From: Sulfuricurvum kujiense DSM 16994
Lineage (GTDB): Bacteria; Campylobacterota; Campylobacteria; Campylobacterales; Sulfurimonadaceae
DNA length: 64,000 bases
Assembly (NCBI RefSeq): GCF_000183725.1
Contig: NC_014762.1
Location: 1,736,001-1,800,000 of the forward strand
Direction of reading: 5' to 3'
Position 1 is the first letter of the stretch. Every line of letters starts with the position of its first letter. This document shows, piece by piece, positions 3,882-34,411 of this stretch. The translations under genes and the position numbers were made by a program. The notes under the pieces were generated by a model. It was not told the DNA's origin. It ran no database searches and saw only the letters and a list, made by a program, of their open reading frames with translations.

Positions 3882-4991
3882 TTAGACGAAGCTTTTTTTA
3901 CCCGTATCCCCGTAAAGATATCGGAAACGATAGGCGAGGAGATTTTCCAAAATCGCCAGAATGACCATAAAATTGATAAAACTGCTCCCCCCATAGCTGA
4001 ACATCGGCAGAGGTACCCCTACGACGGGGGCAAATCCGATCGTCATGGCGATATTGACCGACATGTAGATGAAAAAGAGCAGCGATAATCCCCCTGCGAC
4101 GACCTTTATATAATAATCCTCCGTCCAAAAGGCGATGATAAGCAGATGGACGATCAGTGCCGAATACAGAAGTATCAGTAAAAACGCCCCGAAAAATCCG
4201 AACCGCTCCACCACATAGGCGAAAATAAAGTCGCTCGATGCGATCGGCAAAAACTTCATTTGCGTCTGGGTGGCGTCCTCTTTATCTTTTCCGAAAAAGC
4301 CACCCGAACCTACGGCGATAATCGACTGCTCGACGTGATAGCTCGGTTTTTCACTGACAAAGTCGGTCAGACGCTGCCGCTGGTAATCATGCAGCTGCGA
4401 ATAGATCAGCGGCAAAGAGATGATAAACGACACGATCAGACCGATCCACACTTTCCAATGTACCCCGACGATGAACAAGATTCCGTATCCCAGCATCATA
4501 AGTACCGTCGCCGTCCCCAAATCGGGCTCTTTGGCGATCAGGAAAAACGGCATCAGAATGAAAAACGAGAGTTTTATAAAATCTTTGAGCCGATACCCGT
4601 CGCGCGGAGGGGGATTTCGGCTGATCAGGTACGCCAGCATCAGTACAAACGCAGGTTTAAGCAGCTCCGAGGGCTGGAGGGTAAAATGGATAAACGGTAT
4701 CTCGATCCACCGCTTCGCCCCCAGTCGGCTATGCCCCACGAACTCTACCGCGATTAAGAGCAATATACTCGTCCAATACGCAATCGGGATCATCCAGAGC
4801 ATCCGTCGGATAGGGAGGAGAAAAAGGGTAATAAACACCCCGACCCCGACAAAAACATAAAACATCTGCTTTTGCCCGAGAGTCGGATGTATCTCGTAGA
4901 TGAGCCAACCTGAAGTGAATATGAGCGGAATCAATAAGATAACCGTGATAAAATCAAAGTGTGCTAAAATTCGTCTATCAATATTAAGCAC
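3882..4991 (-). CDS. rodA: Rod-shape peptidoglycan glycosyltransferase RodA
   Basis: RodA is the SEDS-family transmembrane glycosyltransferase that polymerises lipid II for lateral wall growth, with a class B PBP partner. The protein has 369 residues and about ten hydrophobic helices. Family landmarks are visible: PSELLKPAFVLMLAYL, the loop KEPDLGTATVLM, the periplasmic stretch AIAVGSGGFFGKDKEDATQTQMKF-like region with DFIFAYVVERFGF, and the C-terminal VVGVPLPMFSYGGSS. It starts at 4991 with an ATG and is transcribed away from rluD. No penicillin-binding protein is beside it. FtsW is the close alternative, but this length and the GKDKEDATQ-type loop fit RodA better. Confidence 0.9.
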   Translation of the reverse strand: MLNIDRRILAHFDFITVILLIPLIFTSGWLIYEIHPTLGQKQMFYVFVGVGVFITLFLLPIRRMLWMIPIAYWTSILLLIAVEFVGHSRLGAKRWIEIPFIHFTLQPSELLKPAFVLMLAYLISRNPPPRDGYRLKDFIKLSFFILMPFFLIAKEPDLGTATVLMMLGYGILFIVGVHWKVWIGLIVSFIISLPLIYSQLHDYQRQRLTDFVSEKPSYHVEQSIIAVGSGGFFGKDKEDATQTQMKFLPIASSDFIFAYVVERFGFFGAFLLILLYSALIVHLLIIAFWTEDYYIKVVAGGLSLLFFIYMSVNIAMTIGFAPVVGVPLPMFSYGGSSFINFMVILAILENLLAYRFRYLYGDTGKKSFV

Positions 4992-5177
4992 TACGGTCCT
5001 TCTTTAATTTTTGCTAATTGTAGCATAGCGGGCTTATACTAATTTTTTTTGAACGCAAAAGGAATAAAATCCCTTTTGCTGCGCTGGCCGCTAAGGCACT
5101 GAAGCTTGCCTTATTCTAAGGCAGAAGTTTACATTGTCTAAATGAATCTAAAAACAATAAACTAAAGGCACCCTATT
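4992..5177. other. Divergent intergenic region between rodA and rluD
   Basis: This 186-nt gap must hold promoters for both flanking genes. A hairpin GCAAAAGG / CCTTTTGC (5055-5062 with 5072-5079, 9-nt loop) is present. A second short inverted AAGGCA/TGCCTT pair follows near 5093-5115. I could not assign a confident -10 for either gene. Confidence 0.4.
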
Positions 5178-6155
5178 TTGACACAAGAAGACTCAACGTT
5201 TACGACCGACGAAGCTGTTCGTCTGGACGTTTTTTTAACACAGCAGCTGGGACAGACACGCAACCAGATCACTCAGCTCATCGAACAAAACTGCGTTAGC
5301 GTGGACGGTAAAGAAACCGCCAAATCAGGATTGAAACTCAAACCTTCCCAAACGGTAATCATCCGCTTCCCCGAACAAAAATCGACTCCGGCGCAGGAGA
5401 TCGATTTCGACGTCGATATCTTGTTCGAGGATGATGATATCCTCGTTATCAACAAACCCAGCTCCCTCACCGTCCATCCCGCACCGAGTGTGAAAGAACC
5501 GACCCTCGTCGACTGGCTCAAACACAAAGGGATTGCCCTCTCGACGCTGAGCGGCGAAGAGCGCCACGGCATCGTCCACCGACTCGACCGCGGTACGAGC
5601 GGAGCGATGGTCATCGCCAAAAACAACGAAGCCCACGAAGCCCTCTCGCTTCAGCTGCAGGACAAAACGATGGGGAGATACTATCTTGCGATCATTACCC
5701 CCGCGATGAAAGAGACCATCACCGTTATCGACCGCCCTATCGGACGAAGCGCCAACAACCGCCTCAAAATGGCCATCAGCGAGAGCGGGAAAAATGCCAA
5801 AACGGCATTTGCCAAACTTCTCCCAAGCCATGATGAGACCGAGGAACTGATCGCCTGCAAACTCTACACCGGACGGACCCATCAGATACGGGTTCATTTG
5901 GAGTCAATAAGCCGCCATATCATCGGTGATCACCTCTACGGAACTTCGGCAAAAAGCGATAAAATGGAACGTATATTGCTTCATGCCTATAACCTCTATT
6001 TTACCCATCCGACGACCTTAAAGAGGGTGAATTTCACCGCTCCTCTGGGAGACGTGATGGAAGATTATTTAACTAAACATTTTGATTCAAAGGAACTGCA
6101 TGAACTCATCGATCCGCTACGCATTGAGCGCCTCTTTAGCACTGAGTCTCTTTAG
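5178..6155 (+). CDS. rluD: RluA-family 23S rRNA pseudouridine synthase, RluD-like
   Basis: The enzyme isomerises uridine to pseudouridine in large-subunit rRNA (RluD acts around helix 69). It has 325 residues: an S4 RNA-binding domain at about 12-60 (RLDVFLTQQLGQTRNQITQLI), then the catalytic domain with the signature HRLDRGTSG carrying the catalytic Asp. It ends with the usual TGRTHQIRVH substrate-binding strand. The start is a TTG at 5178 with AAAGG about 10 nt upstream; no ATG gives a complete S4 domain. Its 3' end overlaps the next gene by 56 nt, which suggests coupling. RluC/RluA members share these motifs, but S4 plus this length favours RluD. Confidence 0.88.
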   Translation: MTQEDSTFTTDEAVRLDVFLTQQLGQTRNQITQLIEQNCVSVDGKETAKSGLKLKPSQTVIIRFPEQKSTPAQEIDFDVDILFEDDDILVINKPSSLTVHPAPSVKEPTLVDWLKHKGIALSTLSGEERHGIVHRLDRGTSGAMVIAKNNEAHEALSLQLQDKTMGRYYLAIITPAMKETITVIDRPIGRSANNRLKMAISESGKNAKTAFAKLLPSHDETEELIACKLYTGRTHQIRVHLESISRHIIGDHLYGTSAKSDKMERILLHAYNLYFTHPTTLKRVNFTAPLGDVMEDYLTKHFDSKELHELIDPLRIERLFSTESL

Positions 6156-7356
6156 CGGCTGTGCTCCTCAGCCTGTCACACCACAAAAAACCGTTACGAT
6201 CGACTCATCCCTTCCTACCCCCTCATTAAACGGTTTTATTGCCGATATCACGTCGATCGCGTTTGAGTGGAAACTGATCGAAGATCCGCGCATCAGCGGC
6301 TATTACGTTTATCGCAACACTCCGGGTGCCGAAGATCAGAAGTTACAGCGCATCGCTACGATCGACAGCCGTTTCGCAACCCATTTCGTCGACAGCGACC
6401 TCAAACCCGGATGCGAGTACCAATACCGATTTTCCGCCATCACCAAAGAGGGGACAGAATCGATAGCGAGTGAAACCATGCTCGTCGCAACCCAGCCGAT
6501 GATCGCTCCGGTCAGCTTTTTTCAAGCGGTCGGTAACATGCCGCGCAGTGCCAAACTTCTCTGGCGCCCGCATCCGAACGGCAAAATCAACGGCTATATC
6601 GTCGAACGAAGAGATGCAACCGAACAAAAATGGAACGCTATCGCTACCGTTTCAGGACGGCTGAATGCGGAATACATCGACCATGACCTAAAAGACGGGC
6701 AGGTATATCTGTATCACGTCAAAGCGACGACGTTCGACAAACTCACGACCGAGCCGAGCGAAGAGAGCAAAATCATCACCAAACCGCTCCCTCCGGAAAT
6801 TCACAACATCACCTCGACCAACGATCTTCCGCGCGCCATTACGCTAACGTGGGAACCGAGTATGATCAGCGATTTGAGCCATTACAACATTTACCGTTCA
6901 TCAACGCCGAACGGAAAATTTGAGTACTACGTCAAACTCGAAACTACTACCTTTACCGACAAAATCACCGAAGACGGGAAATTCTACTTTTATAAAATCA
7001 CCGCAGTCGACAAAGACGGTTTAGAGAGCCTCCAGCCCTCCGTTGCCACACAGGGTTCAACCCTCTCAAAACCTCAGACGCCGATCGCCTATGAGGGGAA
7101 AATAAACAATAAAGTAGTCGAGCTGCAATGGAAAAATACCGATCCGCGGAGTGTCAGCTATACCGTCATCAAAACAACAAAAACGAGCTGGGTCACCCGA
7201 GAGACTATCGATATCAACAACATCACCGAAACCAGCTTCCGCGATACCGATATCAAACCCGATACCGGCTATCTGTATGAGATTGTAAGCGTCGACAAGA
7301 ACGGTATCCGTTCGCTTCCGACGCAAGCCGTCGAACTCAGCTATGAGGCCAAATAA
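6100..7356 (+). CDS. Fibronectin type III repeat lipoprotein
   Basis: This is a 418-residue predicted outer-membrane or periplasmic lipoprotein. The N-terminus is a lipoprotein signal ending in the lipobox LFSGC, so the mature protein would start at Cys with a lipid anchor. The rest is four repeats of about 90 residues of FN3 type, each with the pattern ...LxWxP...ISGYxVYR...TxFxDxxLKPGxxYxYRxxA. Such domains bind proteins or polysaccharides and carry no enzymatic residues. The ATG at 6100 is chosen because AAGGA precedes it. The gene therefore starts inside rluD, a 56-nt overlap in another frame. trmB follows after 3 nt, so all belong to one operon leading into ftsEX-envC. The exact function is unknown. 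Confidence 0.85.
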   Translation: MNSSIRYALSASLALSLFSGCAPQPVTPQKTVTIDSSLPTPSLNGFIADITSIAFEWKLIEDPRISGYYVYRNTPGAEDQKLQRIATIDSRFATHFVDSDLKPGCEYQYRFSAITKEGTESIASETMLVATQPMIAPVSFFQAVGNMPRSAKLLWRPHPNGKINGYIVERRDATEQKWNAIATVSGRLNAEYIDHDLKDGQVYLYHVKATTFDKLTTEPSEESKIITKPLPPEIHNITSTNDLPRAITLTWEPSMISDLSHYNIYRSSTPNGKFEYYVKLETTTFTDKITEDGKFYFYKITAVDKDGLESLQPSVATQGSTLSKPQTPIAYEGKINNKVVELQWKNTDPRSVSYTVIKTTKTSWVTRETIDINNITETSFRDTDIKPDTGYLYEIVSVDKNGIRSLPTQAVELSYEAK

Positions 7357-23571: not shown

Positions 23572-24504
23572 TTATTTTTCGACCGAAGCGATCCGAAAAG
23601 CGATTGAATTTTGAAAAATAAGGGGGCTGGCATACTGGCATGTTAACACCCCGCCAATCGGTGCTACGATTTTTTCCAGCTTTTCCCCGCTGAGTGCATC
23701 GGTAATACGACCTAATATATCCCCTTTCTCCACTGTCGCACCGCAGGAAACCACCGAATCGAAAATACCCGCACGGGAAGCTTTTAGCACCGTAATATAT
23801 TCGGGCTGTATGATATTGCTCGAATATCCCTCAAACATCGGAAGATCCAGCATCCCGCGCTTCGTCATTAAACGCACCAGCGCTTCGTGGACTTCACTGC
23901 TGGTGGTATTATTAATCGCACCGTTTTTACCGAATACGATGGAGAGGGCTTTTGTCTCCCACAGCTGCCAGTTATACTGGAGCATTACCGTCTCGATCGG
24001 GCTGTAAGGGCGATAATGGATAAAACGCATCCCCAAATCCCGTGCCGATTCGATATCCTCATAGCCGCTTTTGATGATTTTGACGTAAGGCAGACACATC
24101 CCCTGATCCCGACGCCCCTCCAAGATAATGCCGTAATCGAATCCCTGAAGGGATTGAAACAGCTTTGCGGCAATCCGCTGTGTCGTCTCACCCTGTGCAT
24201 AGCCGGGGAACATCATATTGATGTCGGTTTTATCGAGCGGCCAAAACGTCTCCCCCATATTCAAAGCATAGGTATTGACCGCCGGTATTACCAGAATTTT
24301 GCCGATGATTTTCCCCTCTTCCTCTTTTTGACGAAGATAATCGACCAGACGGGAAGCAACATAAAGCTGATTAATATGATCTCCGCTCATCGCTCCTACG
24401 ATCGCGATAGAAGGGCCCTTTGATTCTTCACCGAATAAAAACCCCTCGACTTTGAGCGGAGCGCGGTTGGGAGATTTAAAATTAAGTATTTCGAGCCGCT
24501 TCAT
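23572..24504 (-). CDS. AstE/AspA-family deacylase paralogue lacking catalytic residues
   Basis: The overall sequence is homologous to the active-looking neighbour at 24501 and to succinylglutamate desuccinylase/aspartoacylase (M14-like zinc enzymes). It has 310 residues, including the C-terminal barrel (DALSGEKLEKIVAPIGGVL). The key residues are changed: where the neighbour has H43 and E46 (GIHGDELEG), this protein has S40 and H43 (GAMSGDHINQ). The second zinc His (H130 in the neighbour) is E129, the substrate-binding NR is NM (96-97), and the catalytic Glu (E192) is V190. It should not be a normal zinc deacylase and may be a regulatory or structural partner. It overlaps the active paralogue by 4 nt. 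Confidence 0.8.
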   Translation of the reverse strand: MKRLEILNFKSPNRAPLKVEGFLFGEESKGPSIAIVGAMSGDHINQLYVASRLVDYLRQKEEEGKIIGKILVIPAVNTYALNMGETFWPLDKTDINMMFPGYAQGETTQRIAAKLFQSLQGFDYGIILEGRRDQGMCLPYVKIIKSGYEDIESARDLGMRFIHYRPYSPIETVMLQYNWQLWETKALSIVFGKNGAINNTTSSEVHEALVRLMTKRGMLDLPMFEGYSSNIIQPEYITVLKASRAGIFDSVVSCGATVEKGDILGRITDALSGEKLEKIVAPIGGVLTCQYASPLIFQNSIAFRIASVEK

Positions 24505-25439
24505 CCGTTTTCTCCAAATATACGTCCGACCAAGGATCCCTCATAAACGATAGGATAGGCCCTGAGTGTAAACAGTATCCCTCCGATCGGAGCGATCACC
24601 TCATCGAGCGTTGCGCCGCTGAGCGGATCGACGATTGTCCCTACGACGGAACCTTTCTCGATCATCTGACAGTGTTCGATGGACGGAACGAACAATCCCG
24701 GCTGTGAAGCGTTCAGATATGCCACTTCCCCGACGTGCGACTGAATCGGAAAACGGACATTCAGCGGTTCTATCGCCAAAAAACCCTCTTCCGCCATCAG
24801 ATTTAAAATACCGTCCAGCAGCTGATGCCCGTACGCTTTGCCCAAACGCATACCGACCCCCATCTCGACCACGAGAGTTTTCGTCCCCAGCGTATTCATC
24901 GCATGAGCAAAGGTCGATTCTAAAACCGTGACCGCATCGTGTACCCAGACAAAATCGATGTTAAGCTTATTGGCGAGCGGGACGAGGGTTTTTTCCTGGG
25001 ATTTGGCGATGCGCACCTGCGGTATTTCGCGTAAAAAGACATTGGAAGAGTGGATATCAATCGCTATCTCCGATCCGCTCATCGCACTGATGACCCCATC
25101 GGCAATCTGTGCGGGGAGGAAGTCGTTTTTGCTTCCGGGAAAAATGCGGTTTAAATCGACATCATAGAAAGGAACCGAACGGGTGATACTGTCAAGTCCC
25201 AAAGAGTTGATGGCGGGATAGATATCAATCGTCGCTTTGATCTTGTCCGGATTAGCGCGAAGCCACTCTCCGAGCAAAAAACAGACGTACTGACCTTCCA
25301 ACTCGTCTCCGTGAATCCCGCTGACGATGGAGATGCGCTTTGACGTTTCGCCTTCTTTGGGCGTGTATCGGCACCGCTGGATCCGAAACTGCTCCCCTAC
25401 GGGAAGATCGATCGAAAAAACTTCTTCTATAACGCCCAT
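24501..25439 (-). CDS. AstE/AspA-family zinc deacylase (M14-like)
   Basis: This is a predicted zinc-dependent amide hydrolase related to succinylglutamate desuccinylase and aspartoacylase, 312 residues. Zinc ligands are visible as H43/E46 in SGIHGDELEG and H130 in AIDIHSSN. The substrate-binding NR is at 97-98 (VDLNRIFPG) and the catalytic Glu at E192 in VVEMGVG. The C-terminal ~80 residues form the small beta barrel seen in the family. In this setting, next to ATP-grasp amidoligases, it may trim an N-acyl or aspartyl/glutamyl group from the cluster's product rather than act in arginine breakdown; no ast genes are present. It overlaps the degenerate paralogue by 4 nt and lies 10 nt after the alpha-E gene. 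Confidence 0.87.
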   Translation of the reverse strand: MGVIEEVFSIDLPVGEQFRIQRCRYTPKEGETSKRISIVSGIHGDELEGQYVCFLLGEWLRANPDKIKATIDIYPAINSLGLDSITRSVPFYDVDLNRIFPGSKNDFLPAQIADGVISAMSGSEIAIDIHSSNVFLREIPQVRIAKSQEKTLVPLANKLNIDFVWVHDAVTVLESTFAHAMNTLGTKTLVVEMGVGMRLGKAYGHQLLDGILNLMAEEGFLAIEPLNVRFPIQSHVGEVAYLNASQPGLFVPSIEHCQMIEKGSVVGTIVDPLSGATLDEVIAPIGGILFTLRAYPIVYEGSLVGRIFGENG

Positions 25440-25449
25440 AATGTCTCCA

Positions 25450-26148
25450 TCATGATTGTGTTTGGAGCGATACCGAAGCGCAGGTATCTTTTTGAATCAC
25501 CCGATCGACAACGCCGTTAAGAAATACCAAAAACTTCGAGATATCGGACGTTGTCACATTAATCGGACGGTAGTTGCGGTTCAACTGACGCGCGATCGCA
25601 TTGATCACATCAATATCGGCCGCCACCATCTCAATCTCTCCGTAGAGCCGTAAAATAAGGTCAAATCTCTCGATCTGCTGTCCGAAACGGATCAATTGAT
25701 AAGCGCGCGTACGATCCAACTCGGTCGAAAAGATCCCTAAAATCAAGCTGCAGTCATCGATAATCTCTTCGAGATTGGACGGACTCACCGCACGCTCTCG
25801 CCGCTCAACCAATTGATTGTAAATTTTATTGAGGGTGGCAAACCCTCTCTCATCAAGCAAGTGGCGCGTCTCAATCGCGTTTTCTCTGGCCCAGCTGATA
25901 ATCTGCTCGATACTCCCGCCGTAGGTTCCGTATACCCCTTGTTTCAGGAAATCGAGAGCATTTTTATATTCGATTTCAACACCCAGTTTGCTATAGAGCT
26001 TATGCCCCTCCTCAAAATCCCGATCAATAATATAATCATAGGCGTTGACCAGTTCTCTAAGCATTGTCTCGGCACGCTGAACGTACCGTCCGAACCAATA
26101 GAGCCGCTGAGCGGTATTTACCGAAATAGCCATCCCGTTGATAATCAT
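25450..26148 (-). CDS. Alpha-E domain protein (DUF403)
   Basis: This is a 232-residue all-helical protein of the alpha-E family, opening with the typical NTAQRLYWFGRYVQRAETMLR. The domain is nearly always found beside, or fused to, circularly permuted ATP-grasp proteins and transglutaminase-like proteins. Its activity is unknown. The start is taken at 26148, where ATGA overlaps the stop of the upstream ATP-grasp gene by 4 nt; a slightly longer frame exists. The same domain is fused to an ATP-grasp in the 28519 gene, so the cluster holds a split and a fused version. Confidence 0.88.
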   Translation of the reverse strand: MIINGMAISVNTAQRLYWFGRYVQRAETMLRELVNAYDYIIDRDFEEGHKLYSKLGVEIEYKNALDFLKQGVYGTYGGSIEQIISWARENAIETRHLLDERGFATLNKIYNQLVERRERAVSPSNLEEIIDDCSLILGIFSTELDRTRAYQLIRFGQQIERFDLILRLYGEIEMVAADIDVINAIARQLNRNYRPINVTTSDISKFLVFLNGVVDRVIQKDTCASVSLQTQS

Positions 26149-27509
26149 AATTCCACCACCCATGTATCTTTAAAGCCGCCCCCTTGGGACGAATTGACCA
26201 AATAGTTCCCCTCTTCCATCGCATAGCGGGTCAACCCGCCCATACTGACGGTCACTTTTTCCCCATGGATGACATAGGCGCGAAGATCGGCTTTGCGGGG
26301 GACGATACCCCCTTCCATCATACACGGCAGATCGTAAAACTCGATCACCTCCTGAGCGATCCATCGGCGCGGCTCCGCCAAAATCATCTCGATAATTTCA
26401 GCGCGTTTTTCGCTCGTTAAACGGTTCCCGAACAATACGCCGTACCCTCCCGCTTCCGCAACGTCTTTGATAACGAGTTTGTCGATATTCGCCAGAACGT
26501 ATTCACGGTCTTTTTCATAATACGGAAGATAGGTCGGAGCGTTCGAGAGTATCGGCTCCTCATCCAAATAATATTTGACCATTTGGGGGACGAAATAATA
26601 AATACCCTTGTCATCGGCGACGCCGTTGCCGATGCTGTTCATAATAGCGATGTTTCCGGCTCGGTAAGCGCGCGTGATCCCTTTTACCCCGATGAGGGTA
26701 TCGGGTTCAAATTCTTCGGGATCGAGAAAATCATCATCCAGCCGCCGATAGATCGCTCCGACCCGCTGGCGTTCTCCGTCGTACGAGCATAAGAAGACTT
26801 CATCGTTTTGAACGATTAAATCATCCCCGGTTGCGAGCGTGGCTCCGGTAATTTTTGCCAGGTAGCTGTGTTCGTAATAGGCGGAGTTATAGCGACCCGG
26901 GGTGAGAACGACATTGAGTCCCCCCGTATTGACGTAATCCATCGCCGCTTTGAGTTCATCACCGTAATGCTTGATTTTGCTGATTTTCATCGATTCGAAA
27001 AATTCGGGATAGGTGTGGCGAAACGCACGGCGGATAGTGAGGGGATAACTCACTCCGCTGGGAACGCGAAGGTTATCTTCGAGAATCACCCATTTACCGC
27101 TCACGGCGTCTTTCACCAAATCGATACCGCTGATATGGGTACGAATCCCTTTTGGGGGATTGACACCCATAAATTCAGGCAAAAACGCTTTTGCCGAATC
27201 GACATACTCACGCGGGACTATACCGTCTTTGACAATTTTCTGATCATTGTAAATATCGTTTAAAAAAGCGTTGAGGGCTTTGACACGCTGAATAATCCCC
27301 TCTTCCAACTCGTCGAATTCAGACTTGGGAATGATACGGGGGATCATATCGAAAGGGAAAGAGCGTTCAATAAAAGTTCCGTCTTTAAACAGATTGAAAT
27401 TGACCGCATTGGCTTCTAGAAACTCTTTAAACTCAGAGACTTTACTTTGATCGACTTGATCAAAAATATCATAAAACTTTTGTAATTCAGGACATACGGG
27501 CTCGAGCAT
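26145..27509 (-). CDS. Circularly permuted ATP-grasp type 2 amidoligase (DUF404/DUF407)
   Basis: This 454-residue protein belongs to the circularly permuted ATP-grasp group predicted to join a carboxylate to an amine with ATP. Recognisable motifs are EDNLRVPSGVSYPL, LTPGRYNSAYYEHSYLA, DVAEAGGYGVLFG and the C-terminal RKADLRAYVIHG with GGLTRYA. The ATG at 27509 has AAGGGG just upstream; a TTG one codon earlier is ignored. It heads the downstream half of the cluster, coupled by ATGA to the alpha-E gene, with 112 nt back to the transglutaminase gene. Substrate unknown. Confidence 0.9.
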   Translation of the reverse strand: MLEPVCPELQKFYDIFDQVDQSKVSEFKEFLEANAVNFNLFKDGTFIERSFPFDMIPRIIPKSEFDELEEGIIQRVKALNAFLNDIYNDQKIVKDGIVPREYVDSAKAFLPEFMGVNPPKGIRTHISGIDLVKDAVSGKWVILEDNLRVPSGVSYPLTIRRAFRHTYPEFFESMKISKIKHYGDELKAAMDYVNTGGLNVVLTPGRYNSAYYEHSYLAKITGATLATGDDLIVQNDEVFLCSYDGERQRVGAIYRRLDDDFLDPEEFEPDTLIGVKGITRAYRAGNIAIMNSIGNGVADDKGIYYFVPQMVKYYLDEEPILSNAPTYLPYYEKDREYVLANIDKLVIKDVAEAGGYGVLFGNRLTSEKRAEIIEMILAEPRRWIAQEVIEFYDLPCMMEGGIVPRKADLRAYVIHGEKVTVSMGGLTRYAMEEGNYLVNSSQGGGFKDTWVVEL

Positions 27510-27624
27510 CAATACCCCTTGAAAATTAGGACTTATTCAATGATATCCTAATCTGATCTCATGGGTTGCTTAAAAAAAATACAATTACGCATTAATCATG
27601 CAAAAAGAACCTATTTATAAAAAT

Positions 27625-28515
27625 CTACTCTCTGGAAACATCCACCATCACCCCTAAATGACTCGAGCCGCTTCCGACGACGACCCCCTGCATCGGAGAG
27701 ATATCACTGTAGTCACGACCGTATCCCAAAAGAATATGCTGATCGATCGGAACCAAATTATTGGTAGGATCAAATTCGAACCATCCGAATCCCGGGAAAA
27801 ATACCCCGATCCATGCATGAGACGCATCGGAACCGAATAGTTTCTCCGAACCCTCCTGTGGATTAGTCTCAATGTAACCGCTCATATAACGGACACATAA
27901 ACCCGCTCCCCGCAACGCGGTAAGGGCAAAATGGGCAAAATCCTGACAAACCCCTTTTTTTTCGGCGAATACCCGCTCAACCGGAGTACTGAGATCGCTA
28001 AAACCGCTTACAAACGAGAAATCAGTAAATATCCGTTCCATAAACTCCATAATTCCCTCATACAAAGAGCGCTCCGGCTTGATGGAGTGCAGAACATACT
28101 GCAAAATCTCAGCGGAGGCGATAGGGAGCAGCGGACTTTTAAGCGCGAACTGTTTGGCTTCGATAATCTCAGGGGTAAGAAACATCATCCTCTCCTGTGC
28201 CTGCGCGTACGTAAGCGAAGCGGCTCTCTGGCGATTTTCCTGAAGCCGCTCTATCGCGTTAAAATCGATTTCTACCCTCGACTGAGCCGCAACGTTCAAA
28301 ACGGTATGCGGCTCGCGCACCAGCAGATGATGCAGATGATTTCCGAAAAAATCGTCATACCCTTCAATCTCTGCCGCAATCGGCTCGATCGTGAGATCAA
28401 AATTGAGCACTTTTTGGGTAGCGGTATTTCGCGGCTGCAAACGGATAAGGTTATGGCTGAACCCGACTTCATGCTGATAAATGAATCGGGTGCTGTGATA
28501 AACGGTATATATCAT
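27625..28515 (-). CDS. Transglutaminase-like cysteine peptidase
   Basis: The 296-residue protein has an N-terminal beta-rich domain (bacterial transglutaminase N-type, YTVYHSTRFIYQHEVGFSHN) and a transglutaminase-like core. The catalytic triad is visible: Cys in KKGVCQDFAHF, His in SDASHAWIG and Asp in FEFDPTNN. Such bacterial enzymes are usually peptidases or amidases rather than cross-linkers. It is cytoplasmic by lack of a signal peptide. It lies 3 nt from the fused ATP-grasp/alpha-E gene upstream and belongs to the amidoligase cluster. Confidence 0.9.
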   Translation of the reverse strand: MIYTVYHSTRFIYQHEVGFSHNLIRLQPRNTATQKVLNFDLTIEPIAAEIEGYDDFFGNHLHHLLVREPHTVLNVAAQSRVEIDFNAIERLQENRQRAASLTYAQAQERMMFLTPEIIEAKQFALKSPLLPIASAEILQYVLHSIKPERSLYEGIMEFMERIFTDFSFVSGFSDLSTPVERVFAEKKGVCQDFAHFALTALRGAGLCVRYMSGYIETNPQEGSEKLFGSDASHAWIGVFFPGFGWFEFDPTNNLVPIDQHILLGYGRDYSDISPMQGVVVGSGSSHLGVMVDVSRE

Positions 28516-28518
28516 CGG

Positions 28519-30999
28519 TTACTCGTCATAATGGGCAAAATAGGTTTTGGACAACTCCGAAGAGGCCAACAACAGCTTGGCCGAGAGTTCGGAGAGGAGC
28601 GAATCGAGTTCGCTTCGAATATATTCATTAGCGCCTAACGAACAAAGGGTATCGATTTTACTGAGCCGCAACATTGAAAAGACTTCAAAAATAGGCTCTT
28701 CATAGCGGCTTAGATAGGTGGCATTTTTAAATTTCGGCAGTTGAGGGAGGATTTTCATCAATCCATCCACCTCGCTGATCAACGATTTCGGGAAATTTAT
28801 ATCGAGAAGCAAAAACTCGATAATATTTCTCATCTCGTACGATGAGCGATACCGTGCACGATACGCATTGAGACTTTCGCACGTACTGAGCAGCGTCTCT
28901 AAAATTTCATATTCGCTCAGTTCGTCATGGGCAGGGGTAAGCAACGCCCGTGCTTTGGAGATAAGCAGCTGAGAACGCTCGATCCGGGCTCCGATCTCGT
29001 ACAGCAATGATCCCTGATCGACAAATAAAGACTCTTGAATCAGTTCTTTATAGGCCATCAGCTGCATCAGCAGTTGATCAAGATTATGAATCATCAATCG
29101 CGGATTCGCCGTCGCTTCGGAACAAAACTGATTCCATTCACGGTTCATCCGTTCATATATACGGGACGCTTCAAGCGGTAAAATACTTTTGGCATACGTG
29201 TTAGCATTAGAGAGCATCGTAATAATCTGCGCCAAACTCCCCACTCTTGTCGCGTTAAAACTCACCGAAGCAATCTCGTCAAACGCCGATGGAGTGTTCT
29301 CCTCATCTAAAAACCCCGGATAGGTCATCGTCACGTGAGTAAGCGCTTTGGTGAGCATCTCCAAGGTTTGATGATTGGAGACCTGATCATAGCGTGAAGC
29401 GTTTGTCATATATTTGAGAGTTGTACGGATCATTCGAGCGGTAATGATGGAGCGCATAAGATAGCGTCCCAGCCAAAAAAGGTTCTCCGCACGAAGGCTC
29501 GGGATATTTTCCAACGAATTTTCCGCAGCCGTTTTGGAGTGAAACAGCGGGGTCGGAGGGATGCTTTGAGACTCTCCCAAAACCCATAAATCTTTACTGC
29601 TCCCTCCAAATTGGTTGGATACGACGAGCGAATCATTCCCCGCCCCTACCCGCACCAAAGCTCCCGGCATCACCGTATAGCGATCATCCTGAACAATCGT
29701 ATAGGCACGGATAACCGCTTTTCGAGGCTCAATCGACTCTTTTACTAGGGTCGGACAGCTCGCGAACTCAACCTCCTCTTGCCCGACATAGCGGTGAGGT
29801 TGATCCAATATCTCCTGACGGAGAGATTTCAGCTCTTTTTTACTCAGCTGTTTGCCGATATAGGTGTGTTTTTCCCCCAGCCGATCGATTGTTTTGATAA
29901 TAAGACGTTCCAAATTATCCAAAACGAACTCTTTTTCCTTGCTCTGCCCGCACCACCATGTGGCGATCTGGGGCAATATGAGCTCTTCATCCAAAAAGTA
30001 GCGTGCCAAATGGGACATAAACGGATTCAGCCCCAAATTTTCCAGTACGCCGCTTCCCAGCGGGTTCAGCATCTCTACCCCCCCCGCTCTGATCGACTGA
30101 ACCAATCCGGCGACACCGAGCTGCGAATCCTGACGCAGTTCCAACGGATCACAGTAGCTCTCATCCACACGGCGTAAAATCGTATCCACACGGCGGAGCC
30201 CTTTAAGACTTTTGAGCCAGACGGCTCCGTTTTTAGCCAGCAGATCCTGTCCCTGAACCAAAGTAAGCCCTAAAAAAGAGCTCAAATAGGCATGTTCGAA
30301 ATAGGTTTCATTGTGCGGCCCCGGCGAAAGAAGGACGTTAAGCGTCTCACTGTGGCGTCCGGAACCCTCGCCTTGAAAAATCGATTTAAACGTTTCGAAA
30401 AAATCGTACAGCCGTTTGACCGAAATCCCCTCAAACATATCGGGCATTGCCCCGTTCATCGTCAGGCGGTTTTCGATCGAGTATCCCAAACCCGAAGGGG
30501 CTTGTGTACGGTCATTGACCACCCAGATTTTTCCGTCAGGCCCGCGTGCCATGTCGGCGGCATAGATCGTCAACGGCATTTTCATCCCGTGCATTTCGCG
30601 CATAAACCCGCCGTGCGCATAGATCACTTCCATCGGGATAATGCCCTCTTGAATCGCTTTTTGTTCGCCGTAGATATCCTGCAGCAGCAGATTAAACAGT
30701 CTGCACCGCTGCTTAAGCCCCTCTTCCACCAGATTCCATTGTTCCTCTTCGATAATCAAAGGGATCGGATCAAGTTTCCACGGGCGATTAAATCCGCCGG
30801 GATCATTGTAAACGTTGTAGGTAACTCCGTTGTCTTCCAGACGCCAGTCGATCTCTTTTTGCTTGACGAGCAACTGTTCCAAACCGATCCGTTCAAGATT
30901 CGATTTCAGTTTCTCCCAATGAGGGCGAATATTTTTTTCCGCGTCAAACATCTCATCGTACGATGAACTTTGAGAATAGCGTTCAAAGATAGAGTCCAA
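28519..30999 (-). CDS. Fused circularly permuted ATP-grasp and alpha-E protein
   Basis: This 826-residue fusion has an ATP-grasp amidoligase in roughly the first 480 residues (motifs NDRTQAPSGLGYSIENR, LSPGPHNETYFEHAYL, RKAVIRAYTI, LVRVGAG) and an alpha-E domain from about 505 onward (LRAENLFWLGRYLMRSIITARM). It carries the same two activities as the separate 26145 and 25450 genes, but the sequences are clearly diverged. The two copies may therefore handle different substrates or steps. The next gene downstream, the transglutaminase, is 3 nt away; the large DUF2126 gene is 43 nt upstream. Confidence 0.9.
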   Translation of the reverse strand: MDSIFERYSQSSSYDEMFDAEKNIRPHWEKLKSNLERIGLEQLLVKQKEIDWRLEDNGVTYNVYNDPGGFNRPWKLDPIPLIIEEEQWNLVEEGLKQRCRLFNLLLQDIYGEQKAIQEGIIPMEVIYAHGGFMREMHGMKMPLTIYAADMARGPDGKIWVVNDRTQAPSGLGYSIENRLTMNGAMPDMFEGISVKRLYDFFETFKSIFQGEGSGRHSETLNVLLSPGPHNETYFEHAYLSSFLGLTLVQGQDLLAKNGAVWLKSLKGLRRVDTILRRVDESYCDPLELRQDSQLGVAGLVQSIRAGGVEMLNPLGSGVLENLGLNPFMSHLARYFLDEELILPQIATWWCGQSKEKEFVLDNLERLIIKTIDRLGEKHTYIGKQLSKKELKSLRQEILDQPHRYVGQEEVEFASCPTLVKESIEPRKAVIRAYTIVQDDRYTVMPGALVRVGAGNDSLVVSNQFGGSSKDLWVLGESQSIPPTPLFHSKTAAENSLENIPSLRAENLFWLGRYLMRSIITARMIRTTLKYMTNASRYDQVSNHQTLEMLTKALTHVTMTYPGFLDEENTPSAFDEIASVSFNATRVGSLAQIITMLSNANTYAKSILPLEASRIYERMNREWNQFCSEATANPRLMIHNLDQLLMQLMAYKELIQESLFVDQGSLLYEIGARIERSQLLISKARALLTPAHDELSEYEILETLLSTCESLNAYRARYRSSYEMRNIIEFLLLDINFPKSLISEVDGLMKILPQLPKFKNATYLSRYEEPIFEVFSMLRLSKIDTLCSLGANEYIRSELDSLLSELSAKLLLASSELSKTYFAHYDE

Positions 31000-31042
31000 A
31001 GCAGATTACCTTTTACTTATTAAGTGTGTAGCGGATTTTACC

Positions 31043-34000
31043 CTATTGTGCATTAGGGCTCCATTTTCGGCGCAAATCGAGGGTATGCGGATATTCCAGC
31101 GACCCCGGAAGCTCTTGATACGCGAACACTTTTTTCTGAGGGTGATTTCGGACAACCCGCGAAGCAGTCTCTTCACCCGATTCTTGGGAACGGATAAGCG
31201 GTTCATGCACCTCTTCGATCTCCCCTTGGGTATGTCCGAATCCCCAGTAGCGGCTGATACGGCGTGATTGCGCTTCGAGGGAATTGACCGGAAACGTATC
31301 GTAGGCACGACCGCCAGGGTGGGCGATAAAATAGGTAAACCCTCCCATGGAACGTCGGTTCCACGTATCGACGATATCAAACACGAGCGGCGTATCGACC
31401 CCAATCGTCGGATGGAGTGCCGACCACGGCTGCCATGCACGGTAGCGCACGCCAGCGACGAATTCCCCCTCCACACCCGTCGAGACGAGAGGGACCCGTA
31501 CCCCGTTGCAGGTGATGACATAGCGTTCGCTGACGAAATCATTGACCTTGATCTGTACCCGCTCTACCGAAGAATCGACGTATCGGGCAGTTCCCTGCGA
31601 ACTCGATTCTTCCCCCAGTACGTTCCACGGTTCGATCCCGCCACGCAGTTCACAATGTATCCCCTCGATCGTACTCATCCCGTACAACGGGAAACGGAAC
31701 TCGAAAAACGGATCGAACCAGTCGTTCTCAAACCCGTACCCCTCGGCACGCAAAAATGCGACGATATCACGGATATCGTCGCGGACGTAATGTTCGATCA
31801 GAAATTTATCGTGCAGCTGTGTCCCCCAACGAACCAATTTATGTTTGTACGGTTTTTTCCAAAAGAGCGACACGAGGGTACGGATCAGAAGCATCTGCAC
31901 CAACGACATCTGGGCGTGCGGCGGCATCTCAAACCCTCTTAATTCCAAAATCCCGAGTCTCCCCGTGGAGGAGTCTGGGGAATAGAGTTTATCGATACAA
32001 AACTCGCTTCGGTGGGTGTTCCCCGTCAAATCGGTGAGCATATGGCGAAACAGCCGGTCGGTGAGCCAAAACGGTACCTCTCCCTCTTCCGGGATTTGGT
32101 TAAACGCGATCTCGAGTTCATACAGGTTTTCCAACCGCCCCTCATCGACGCGGGGAGCCTGAGAAGTAGGCCCGATAAACTGTCCTGAGAACAGATATGA
32201 GAGACTCGGATGATGCTGCCAAAACGTAATAAGCGAGCGCAAAAGTTCGGGACGGCGCAGCAGCGGACTGTCACTCGGTGTAATCCCTCCAATCGTAACA
32301 TGGTTTCCTCCCCCCGTTCCGCTTTGCTTGCCGTCTTGCATAAATTTGAGTGTCCCCAGACGGGAGAAATGGGCATCTTCATAGAGGGTATCAATGACAT
32401 CCGTGAGCTCTTCCCAGCTTGAGGTTGGATGGATATTCACCTCGATGACCCCCGGGTCCGGAGTGACCCGCATCTTCTCCAGACGCAAATCGTTCGGAGG
32501 CTCATACCCCTCGATCATGACCGCCATATTCAGTGCTTCAGCCGTCTCTTCGATCGAGGCGATCAGGTCTAAAAACGCTTCGGTATCGGTGATCGGAGGG
32601 AGGAAAATAAAGAGTTTGGATTCGCGTATCTCGACACTCAGAGCCGTCCGGACGAACACCTCGTAATCCGGTGTTTTTTTCGTCGTTTTTTTCACCTTTG
32701 CCGCACGTGCTTTTACCGCACTGTGGTATTCTCCCAGTGAGGGAAAAGCGGCAAAAAGATCGGGTTCGAAACTCTGTTCCAGCTCCACCTGCGGTTTATG
32801 GGTCAGCGAATCAAGCGGCAGACGCAAGCCTACCGGAGAGGTTCCCGGTGCGAGAAAGAGCTGCGCACGTCTAAATTCCCAACGGCATGTTACCCAGCGG
32901 GTCGTCCCCCAATTCAGCGGGAGGACGAATCCGGCAGGTTTATCGATGCCGCTGGAGAGATTCTCTGCCAATGCGCGCCGCTCTAATGAATCTTTCATCG
33001 ATGTTTTCATCGGATCGACATCGATCGGCAGCAGCGATTCTTGCAGGAGTGCGATGAGAGGGTCGTTGTAGGCATCGTGAATGTTTTGATCGCTGATTCC
33101 CAGATTCAGACAAAGCTTGGCTAAAAATTTCCGTGCATCTTCGGGAGTGTAATCGAACGTCTGATCCAGACTCGCCAGCAGCTCGGGGTTATTCCAGATC
33201 GCTTGGCCGTCACGCCGCCAAATAATCGTGCTCATCCATCGCGGAAGCGGTTCACCCGGATACCATTTGCCCTGCGCATGGTGAAGCATTCCCCCTTTTC
33301 CAAACGATCTTAAAAGACGGCGGGAGAGGACATTCGCCAACTCACGTTTGTGAGGGCCGTCCGCTTCGGTATTCCACTCTGGCGATTCCATATCGTCGAT
33401 GGAGACAAACGTCGGTTCTCCCCCCATCGTGAGACGGACATCGTTTTTCACCAATTCCTGATCCACCAGATGCCCCAGTTTGTCAATCGCTTCCCACTGC
33501 TCGGCTCGGTAAGGTTTTGTAACCCGGGGAGATTCAAAAACGCGCGTAACAGTGTTGGAATAGGTAAATTCGACCTCGCACTTATCCATAGCCCCCTCGA
33601 CGGGAGCGGCACTCTCAGGATTCGGGGTACATGCCAGCGGTATATGTCCCTCGGCGGCGAACAGTCCGCTCGTCGCATCCAGCCCGATCCATCCCGCACC
33701 CGGGATATAGACCTCCGTCCACGCATGCAGGTCGGTAAAATCCTCCGCAGGGCCGCTAGGGCCGTCCAATGAAGCGACATCGGCGGAGAGCTGAACGAGA
33801 TACCCCGAAACAAACCGTGCCGCAAGCCCAAGATGTCGAAGCACCTGCACGAACAGCCATGCGAAATCGCGGCATGAACCCAGCTTGTTTTCCAGCGTCA
33901 CTTCGCAGCTCTGCACCCCCGGTTCCATACGGATTGTGTAGTCGAGATATTTATGGACCGCCATATTCAGATCGACGAGGAAATCGTTAATATTTCGGGG

Positions 34001-34411
34001 AGTCAAATCGAGCGTTTTGAGAAACTTTTTGAGTTTTTTACCCTCTTCGGTAATCTCCAGATAGGGGGATAACTCTTTTTTGAGCTCTTTTTTATATTTG
34101 AACGGAAAATCAGTCGCATACTCTTCGACGAAAAAATCAAACGGGTTGATACTGACCAATTCGGCCAAAACCTCCACATCGATAGAGAGTTCCGTCGTCT
34201 TCTCCGGAAAAACGATCCGTGCCAGATAGTTTCCGAACGGGTCTTGCTGCCAATTGATAAAATGATCTTCCGGCTTTATATTGAGCGAATACGCTTCAAT
34301 CGGCGTACGGCTGTGAGGGGCGGGACGAAGACGTATCACATGGGGAGAAAGATTGATCGGTTTATCGAAAGCATAATGGGTCTTGTGTGAGAGAACGACT
34401 TTGAGCGACAT
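31043..34411 (-). CDS. Transglutaminase-like / DUF2126 fusion protein
   Basis: This is a 1122-residue protein with an N-terminal transglutaminase-like part (~1-300). Its Cys is in LGSCRDFAWLF, its His in TDLHAWTEVY and its Asp in IGLDATSGL. The rest is DUF2126, a large domain placed by published comparative genomics in the COOH-NH2 ligase (glutamate-cysteine ligase-like) fold. Conserved-looking pieces include LTMGGEPTFVSIDDM, GGGNHVTIGG and LELRGFEMPPHAQMS. It is first in the cluster's transcription order. A ligase and a peptidase in one chain fits a make-and-trim scheme for a small peptide, which is inference. Confidence 0.9.
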   Translation of the reverse strand: MSLKVVLSHKTHYAFDKPINLSPHVIRLRPAPHSRTPIEAYSLNIKPEDHFINWQQDPFGNYLARIVFPEKTTELSIDVEVLAELVSINPFDFFVEEYATDFPFKYKKELKKELSPYLEITEEGKKLKKFLKTLDLTPRNINDFLVDLNMAVHKYLDYTIRMEPGVQSCEVTLENKLGSCRDFAWLFVQVLRHLGLAARFVSGYLVQLSADVASLDGPSGPAEDFTDLHAWTEVYIPGAGWIGLDATSGLFAAEGHIPLACTPNPESAAPVEGAMDKCEVEFTYSNTVTRVFESPRVTKPYRAEQWEAIDKLGHLVDQELVKNDVRLTMGGEPTFVSIDDMESPEWNTEADGPHKRELANVLSRRLLRSFGKGGMLHHAQGKWYPGEPLPRWMSTIIWRRDGQAIWNNPELLASLDQTFDYTPEDARKFLAKLCLNLGISDQNIHDAYNDPLIALLQESLLPIDVDPMKTSMKDSLERRALAENLSSGIDKPAGFVLPLNWGTTRWVTCRWEFRRAQLFLAPGTSPVGLRLPLDSLTHKPQVELEQSFEPDLFAAFPSLGEYHSAVKARAAKVKKTTKKTPDYEVFVRTALSVEIRESKLFIFLPPITDTEAFLDLIASIEETAEALNMAVMIEGYEPPNDLRLEKMRVTPDPGVIEVNIHPTSSWEELTDVIDTLYEDAHFSRLGTLKFMQDGKQSGTGGGNHVTIGGITPSDSPLLRRPELLRSLITFWQHHPSLSYLFSGQFIGPTSQAPRVDEGRLENLYELEIAFNQIPEEGEVPFWLTDRLFRHMLTDLTGNTHRSEFCIDKLYSPDSSTGRLGILELRGFEMPPHAQMSLVQMLLIRTLVSLFWKKPYKHKLVRWGTQLHDKFLIEHYVRDDIRDIVAFLRAEGYGFENDWFDPFFEFRFPLYGMSTIEGIHCELRGGIEPWNVLGEESSSQGTARYVDSSVERVQIKVNDFVSERYVITCNGVRVPLVSTGVEGEFVAGVRYRAWQPWSALHPTIGVDTPLVFDIVDTWNRRSMGGFTYFIAHPGGRAYDTFPVNSLEAQSRRISRYWGFGHTQGEIEEVHEPLIRSQESGEETASRVVRNHPQKKVFAYQELPGSLEYPHTLDLRRKWSPNAQ

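Follow-up and report, generated by a model that had tools for sequence, protein, structure and literature searches.

Two overlapping genes of Sulfuricurvum kujiense DSM 16994 encode an intact and a degenerate member of the AstE/AspA family of deacylases. Judged by sequence comparison, they are a real and conserved live/dead pair joined to an uncharacterised peptide-ligase operon, and the case is stronger than in the preliminary description of the locus, which did not cover the operon context, the all-or-none distribution or the graded decay of the active site. The genes lie in a stretch of 64,000 nucleotides (contig NC_014762.1, positions 1,736,001 to 1,800,000), called the window here, whose numbering is used below. 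Stand-alone zinc deacylases are what the AstE/AspA family is known for, and an obligate pair of a live and a dead member, occurring in several phyla, would be new to it. A literature search found no published description of the pair, though an earlier mention is possible.

An intact and a degenerate deacylase

Gene A (24501-25439, minus strand, 312 aa) is the upstream one, and its stop overlaps the start of gene B (23572-24504, minus strand, 310 aa) by 4 bases. From Pfam, its residues and AlphaFold/Foldseek, A is predicted to be an intact AstE/AspA-family zinc deacylase or peptidase, while Pfam, residues and an AlphaFold model mark B as its dead paralogue. All positions of an active AstE/AspA enzyme are filled in A, namely H43/E46/H130, R87, N97-R98 and E192. 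B has S40/H43/E129 at the metal triad, N96-M97, V190 at the general base, and T at the position of A-R87. The residues quoted in the preliminary description are all correct, as is the overlap, but its claim that every catalytic residue had been lost was slightly too strong: the metal triad and the base are gone, whereas D94 and N96 of the DxNR motif remain, and Arg is still found at the R87 position in 44 of the 81 B sequences collected below. The zinc triad and catalytic Glu of an active AstE/AspA deacylase are thus present in A and absent from B. From its residues A is assumed to be active by the zinc mechanism of this family of deacylases and peptidases, which B cannot use.

Is the fold of B retained? 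As had been claimed, B and A align end to end, C-terminal barrel included, with 27% identity (E 8e-27). Against the Pfam family AstE_AspA_cat (PF24827; curated cut-off 25), A scores 63.5 bits and B 34.6 bits. AlphaFold models were built from family alignments, with a mean pLDDT of 87.1 for A and 87.7 for B. DoeB (6twm) and CphZ (8ein) are the top Foldseek matches of the A model and are among the nearest folds of the B model, whose best Z is 27.2 against 6twm; VIA-align gives B a Z of about 27 against DoeB-type structures across 281-288 residues. The structural check suggested earlier therefore places both proteins, at full length, near these folds, and since B has DoeB and CphZ as its nearest folds at such a score and length, the models indicate that its fold is retained despite the residue loss. 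Model confidence is low in loop 86-92 of B, which holds the invariant W88 and D91.

Graded decay of the active site

Scanning a single genome for each species gave 80 named loci and a set of 81 B sequences, that of the window included. All 81 are decayed, which makes the loss a feature of the family and more than chance: the metal triad reads HEH in none, and where the general base would stand there is V, I, M, L or Y and never E. Every one of the 75 A sequences that extend over the site has H, E, R, N, R, H, E. Because the former triad of B takes about 20 letter combinations, there is no shared replacement metal site; a shared alternative was rejected, as the B proteins have no replacement residues in common. 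E stands at the H130 position in 78/81 and R at the S132 position in 79/81, and C137 and C289 are nearly invariant (alignment A3). H at the E46 position occurs in 26/81, all from the Sulfuricurvum part of the set, where the triad is mostly S/H/E, a swap not common to other genera. A restored metal site had been named as a point that would tell against a dead B. No such site exists family-wide, but in Sulfuricurvum B, and only there, the swapped H43 and E129 occupy two of the three positions that once held ligands and could possibly form a weak two-ligand site.

Other groups differ in how far the decay has gone. Four distant gammaproteobacterial B proteins (L149, L150, L151, L171) keep the whole H/E/H zinc site and N-R and have Gln for the catalytic Glu. 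In Bacteroidales the triad is R/E/A, with Y for the base and N-R kept, and E129, R131, D133 and C137 are missing; in Thiovulum and Thiomicrospira-like B the triad is N/E/E and the base V. B also has a signature of its own, which in the window protein comprises N82, W88, D91, T93, D94, MFPGY and G105-E106-T107-T108-Q109-R110. In a first comparison, N82, W88 and G-E-T-x-Q-R (105-110) were common to the main B clade and three gammaproteobacterial B, and they occur neither in A nor in ordinary 350-aa relatives; D91 is otherwise found in the outgroup only, and W179 is nearly invariant. The signature is present even in gammaproteobacterial B with an intact zinc site. The simplest history would be one old duplication, after which the base was lost first and the zinc site later, an order read across long branches between the groups. 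The series from a lost base with the zinc site kept, through partial loss, to no zinc site would then show, as preserved in nature, the steps by which a pseudoenzyme subunit arises.

Distribution and evolution of the pair

Does the same intact/degenerate pair occur in related genomes, as the preliminary description proposed to look for? Among 399 Campylobacterales genomes, 50 have both A and B, with B identities of 44-100%, and none has A only or B only. The cultured relatives Sulfurospirillum diekertiae and Arcobacter caeni are among the carriers. With Alpha-E as the operon marker, 60 of the 399 genomes were found, of which 50 carry A-B and 10 lack it. In nine of these ten the operon context is complete (ATP-grasp/Alpha-E and transglutaminase/ATP-grasp-Alpha-E) and A and B are both absent, while in the tenth the locus is on a cut contig. 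On the tree of the ATP-grasp ligase, presence of A-B requires 5 changes, at least 3 of which are forced by well supported branches. The pair is also found in Bacteroidales and some Gammaproteobacteria, and so in several phyla. In the 81-sequence set the spacing of A and B is most often -4, which suggests translational coupling; B is open and full length wherever the locus is not truncated by the end of a contig, and no A-B fusion was seen. By this comparison A and B are passed on as a single unit bound to the operon. Plasmid records held general family members only, the best-ranked at 22-25% identity.

In the maximum likelihood tree, A and the main B clade each lie on one side of a branch with support 100/99, and the order of taxa in the A and B trees broadly matches. 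The gammaproteobacterial B group with the B side at a modest 86/75, and so does an unpaired relative, L127 (G471, 1111-2127), that has His at the general-base position, a broken DxNR motif and no A beside it in the locus. One contig labelled Desulfosporosinus (L092) carries an A and a B that nest within Arcobacteraceae, and is most likely misbinned. On three gammaproteobacterial (Thiomicrospira-like) contigs (L073, L082, L086) A and B are placed among Campylobacterota pairs; this position in the tree may reflect either transfer of A-B as a unit or misbinning.

Both genes are under purifying selection: dN/dS is about 0.05 in A and 0.07 in B, with dS partly saturated, and B has evolved about 1.5 times faster than A. 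The mirror-tree distance correlation is 0.94 for A-B versus 0.96 for A-ATP-grasp (partial 0.39). Since the former is not above the latter, it adds nothing beyond shared descent, and these distance correlations show no interaction-specific covariation of A and B.

Operon context

The pair stands at the end of an operon on the minus strand. Upstream of A are an Alpha-E domain protein (25450-26163; PF04168, E 1.2e-20) and, as first gene of the operon, a circularly permuted ATP-grasp protein (26145-27512; PF14403, E 5.7e-141), predicted to be an amide or peptide ligase. Then follows a second cassette, also on the minus strand, with a transglutaminase-like domain fused to DUF2126, a putative amidoligase, as its first gene (31043-34411; PF09899, PF08379, PF01841), a second circularly permuted ATP-grasp fused to Alpha-E (28519-30999; PF14403 and PF04168), and a transglutaminase-like protein as its last (27625-28515; PF08379 and PF01841). 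In many relatives this cassette (27625-34411) adjoins the A-B operon but points the other way; in the window, all the genes share one direction. The transglutaminase of the window belongs to the adjacent second cassette; in other lineages ATP-grasp, Alpha-E, transglutaminase, A and B form a single run. The order ATP-grasp, Alpha-E, (transglutaminase), A, B holds at every sufficiently long locus among the 80, and also in Bacteroidales and most of the gammaproteobacterial pairs examined. The sole pair seen outside the cassette (L151; G706, 4321-6491) has as neighbours genes for elongation factor P and a class II lysyl-tRNA-synthetase-like (EpmA-like) protein.

ATP-grasp, Alpha-E and transglutaminase genes, which here stand together, are also those of the published Anbu operon, where they are followed by the proteasome relative Anbu (PMC6376114, PMC5666114). 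The first genes and their order are alike in the two operons; the difference is that A-B is found at the end, where the published operon has Anbu. Is Anbu encoded elsewhere? In the S. kujiense genome no Anbu was found, and the idea of one hidden elsewhere in it was rejected, the only proteasome-family reading frame being HslV-sized (177 aa). In 23 other genomes there is at most one clear proteasome-family match each, nearly all HslV-sized, the exceptions being a weak additional match in G650 and a match in G706 whose open frame is longer. A third AstE/AspA-like gene, of about 430 aa and with an HGNE motif (G000:C4, 722216-726232; L003, L164), was noted outside the window, with the hslV-like gene of S. 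kujiense about 3 kb away. Operon position suggests that A-B may stand in for Anbu. That the pair is a new two-subunit deconjugase, one subunit live and one dead, which replaced Anbu at the operon end is a tentative idea that we hold possible but rather doubtful. If it were true, two unrelated hydrolases would serve one uncharacterised system of peptide tagging or peptide synthesis.

Function of the pair

Why would a dead deacylase be kept beside a live one? Comparison across genomes indicates that B is a conserved, selected and ancient pseudoenzyme, because it occurs in several phyla, always beside its intact partner and never alone, under purifying selection and with an invariant signature of its own; the earlier proposal of a selected pseudoenzyme is therefore strongly supported. 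Either of the roles offered with it, heterodimer partner or product-binding protein, would fit B. In our view A and B probably make up a single two-subunit hydrolase at the service of the ATP-grasp/Alpha-E/transglutaminase peptide-ligase system, where the complex, the role of the patch and the bond cut are all inferred. A would be its catalytic, zinc-dependent half and would cleave an amide or isopeptide bond, so trimming, releasing or recycling the ligase product. B, the ancient sister copy that would have lost its base before its zinc site, would be retained, without catalysis of its own, to give the complex its shape and/or to hold on to the substrate, with the invariant W88/D91/GETTQR patch beside the old active site as its putative working surface. 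We counted for this reading the residue loss in 81/81 B, co-occurrence, synteny, spacing, the match of the trees, selection, the shared fold and the precedent of the M16B pairs described below; against it, an A-B covariation no stronger than that of A with the ATP-grasp, the L151 pair outside the cassette, and the lack of fusions.

The main rival is that B acts alone, as a sensor, carrier or sink that binds the peptide cut by A and forms no complex with it. B still has its fold and much of the frame of the pocket (N77, D94, N96, FPG), and the invariant W88, D91, E106, Q109 and R110 would suit a ligand pocket too; but strict co-occurrence and coupled start and stop codons favour a stoichiometric partner, and the loop with W88 and D91, of low confidence in the model, looks, weakly, more like one that becomes ordered when a partner binds. 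We regard this rival as unlikely. It is less probable still that B has a rebuilt metal site or new chemistry, based on E129, R131, D133 and C137 or, in Sulfuricurvum, on H43 and E129. The near-constant residues at the H130 and S132 positions, the two cysteines and the Sulfuricurvum His speak for it, but with those residues missing from Bacteroidales B and H/E/H kept in gammaproteobacterial B no alternative site is common to all B, and the former triad varies widely. The faster evolution of B might point to a duplicate of A heading for loss. Such a duplicate would be expected to leave A-only genomes, which were not found, and open reading frames, a conserved signature and low dN/dS in several phyla make it very hard to credit; a recent pseudogene is ruled out by the 81 open and conserved sequences.

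The pair offers a way into the Anbu-type ATP-grasp/Alpha-E operon: a B that does not cut would be a natural substrate trap, and genomes with A-B can be compared directly with genomes lacking it.

Comparison with known systems

Conserved proteins that have lost zinc ligands or the base are known in the wider fold class of A and B, such as the inactive M14 carboxypeptidase-like proteins CPX-1, CPX-2 and AEBP1 and the third domain of CPD. These are eukaryotic and extracellular and are not known to be obligately paired with the gene of an active paralogue, whereas A-B is bacterial and is so paired. The closest solved folds of A and B, over their full length, are DoeB/EutE (N-acetyl-L-2,4-diaminobutyrate deacetylase) and CphZ (cyanophycin dipeptide hydrolase). 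A resembles them with its zinc ligands, Arg, Asn-Arg and general base; B differs in lacking the metal triad and base, and A-B is encoded as a pair in another operon. Membership in the DoeB equivalog (TIGR02994) is ruled out, as B scores 49.7 and A 38.3 bits against a cut-off of 402.7.

Are there precedents for a live and a dead homologue working together? The M16B pairs, MPP alpha/beta and bacterial TTHA1264/TTHA1265, are two-subunit metallopeptidases with a homologous partner subunit; in MPP the zinc motif is missing from one subunit and the other does the catalysis, and the TTHA1264 and TTHA1265 genes are adjacent (PMC12731061). A-B is likewise a homologous live/dead pair, and its active and dead members co-occur obligately, as in a heteromeric metallopeptidase. 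It differs in its unrelated fold and family, and its complex is a predicted one.
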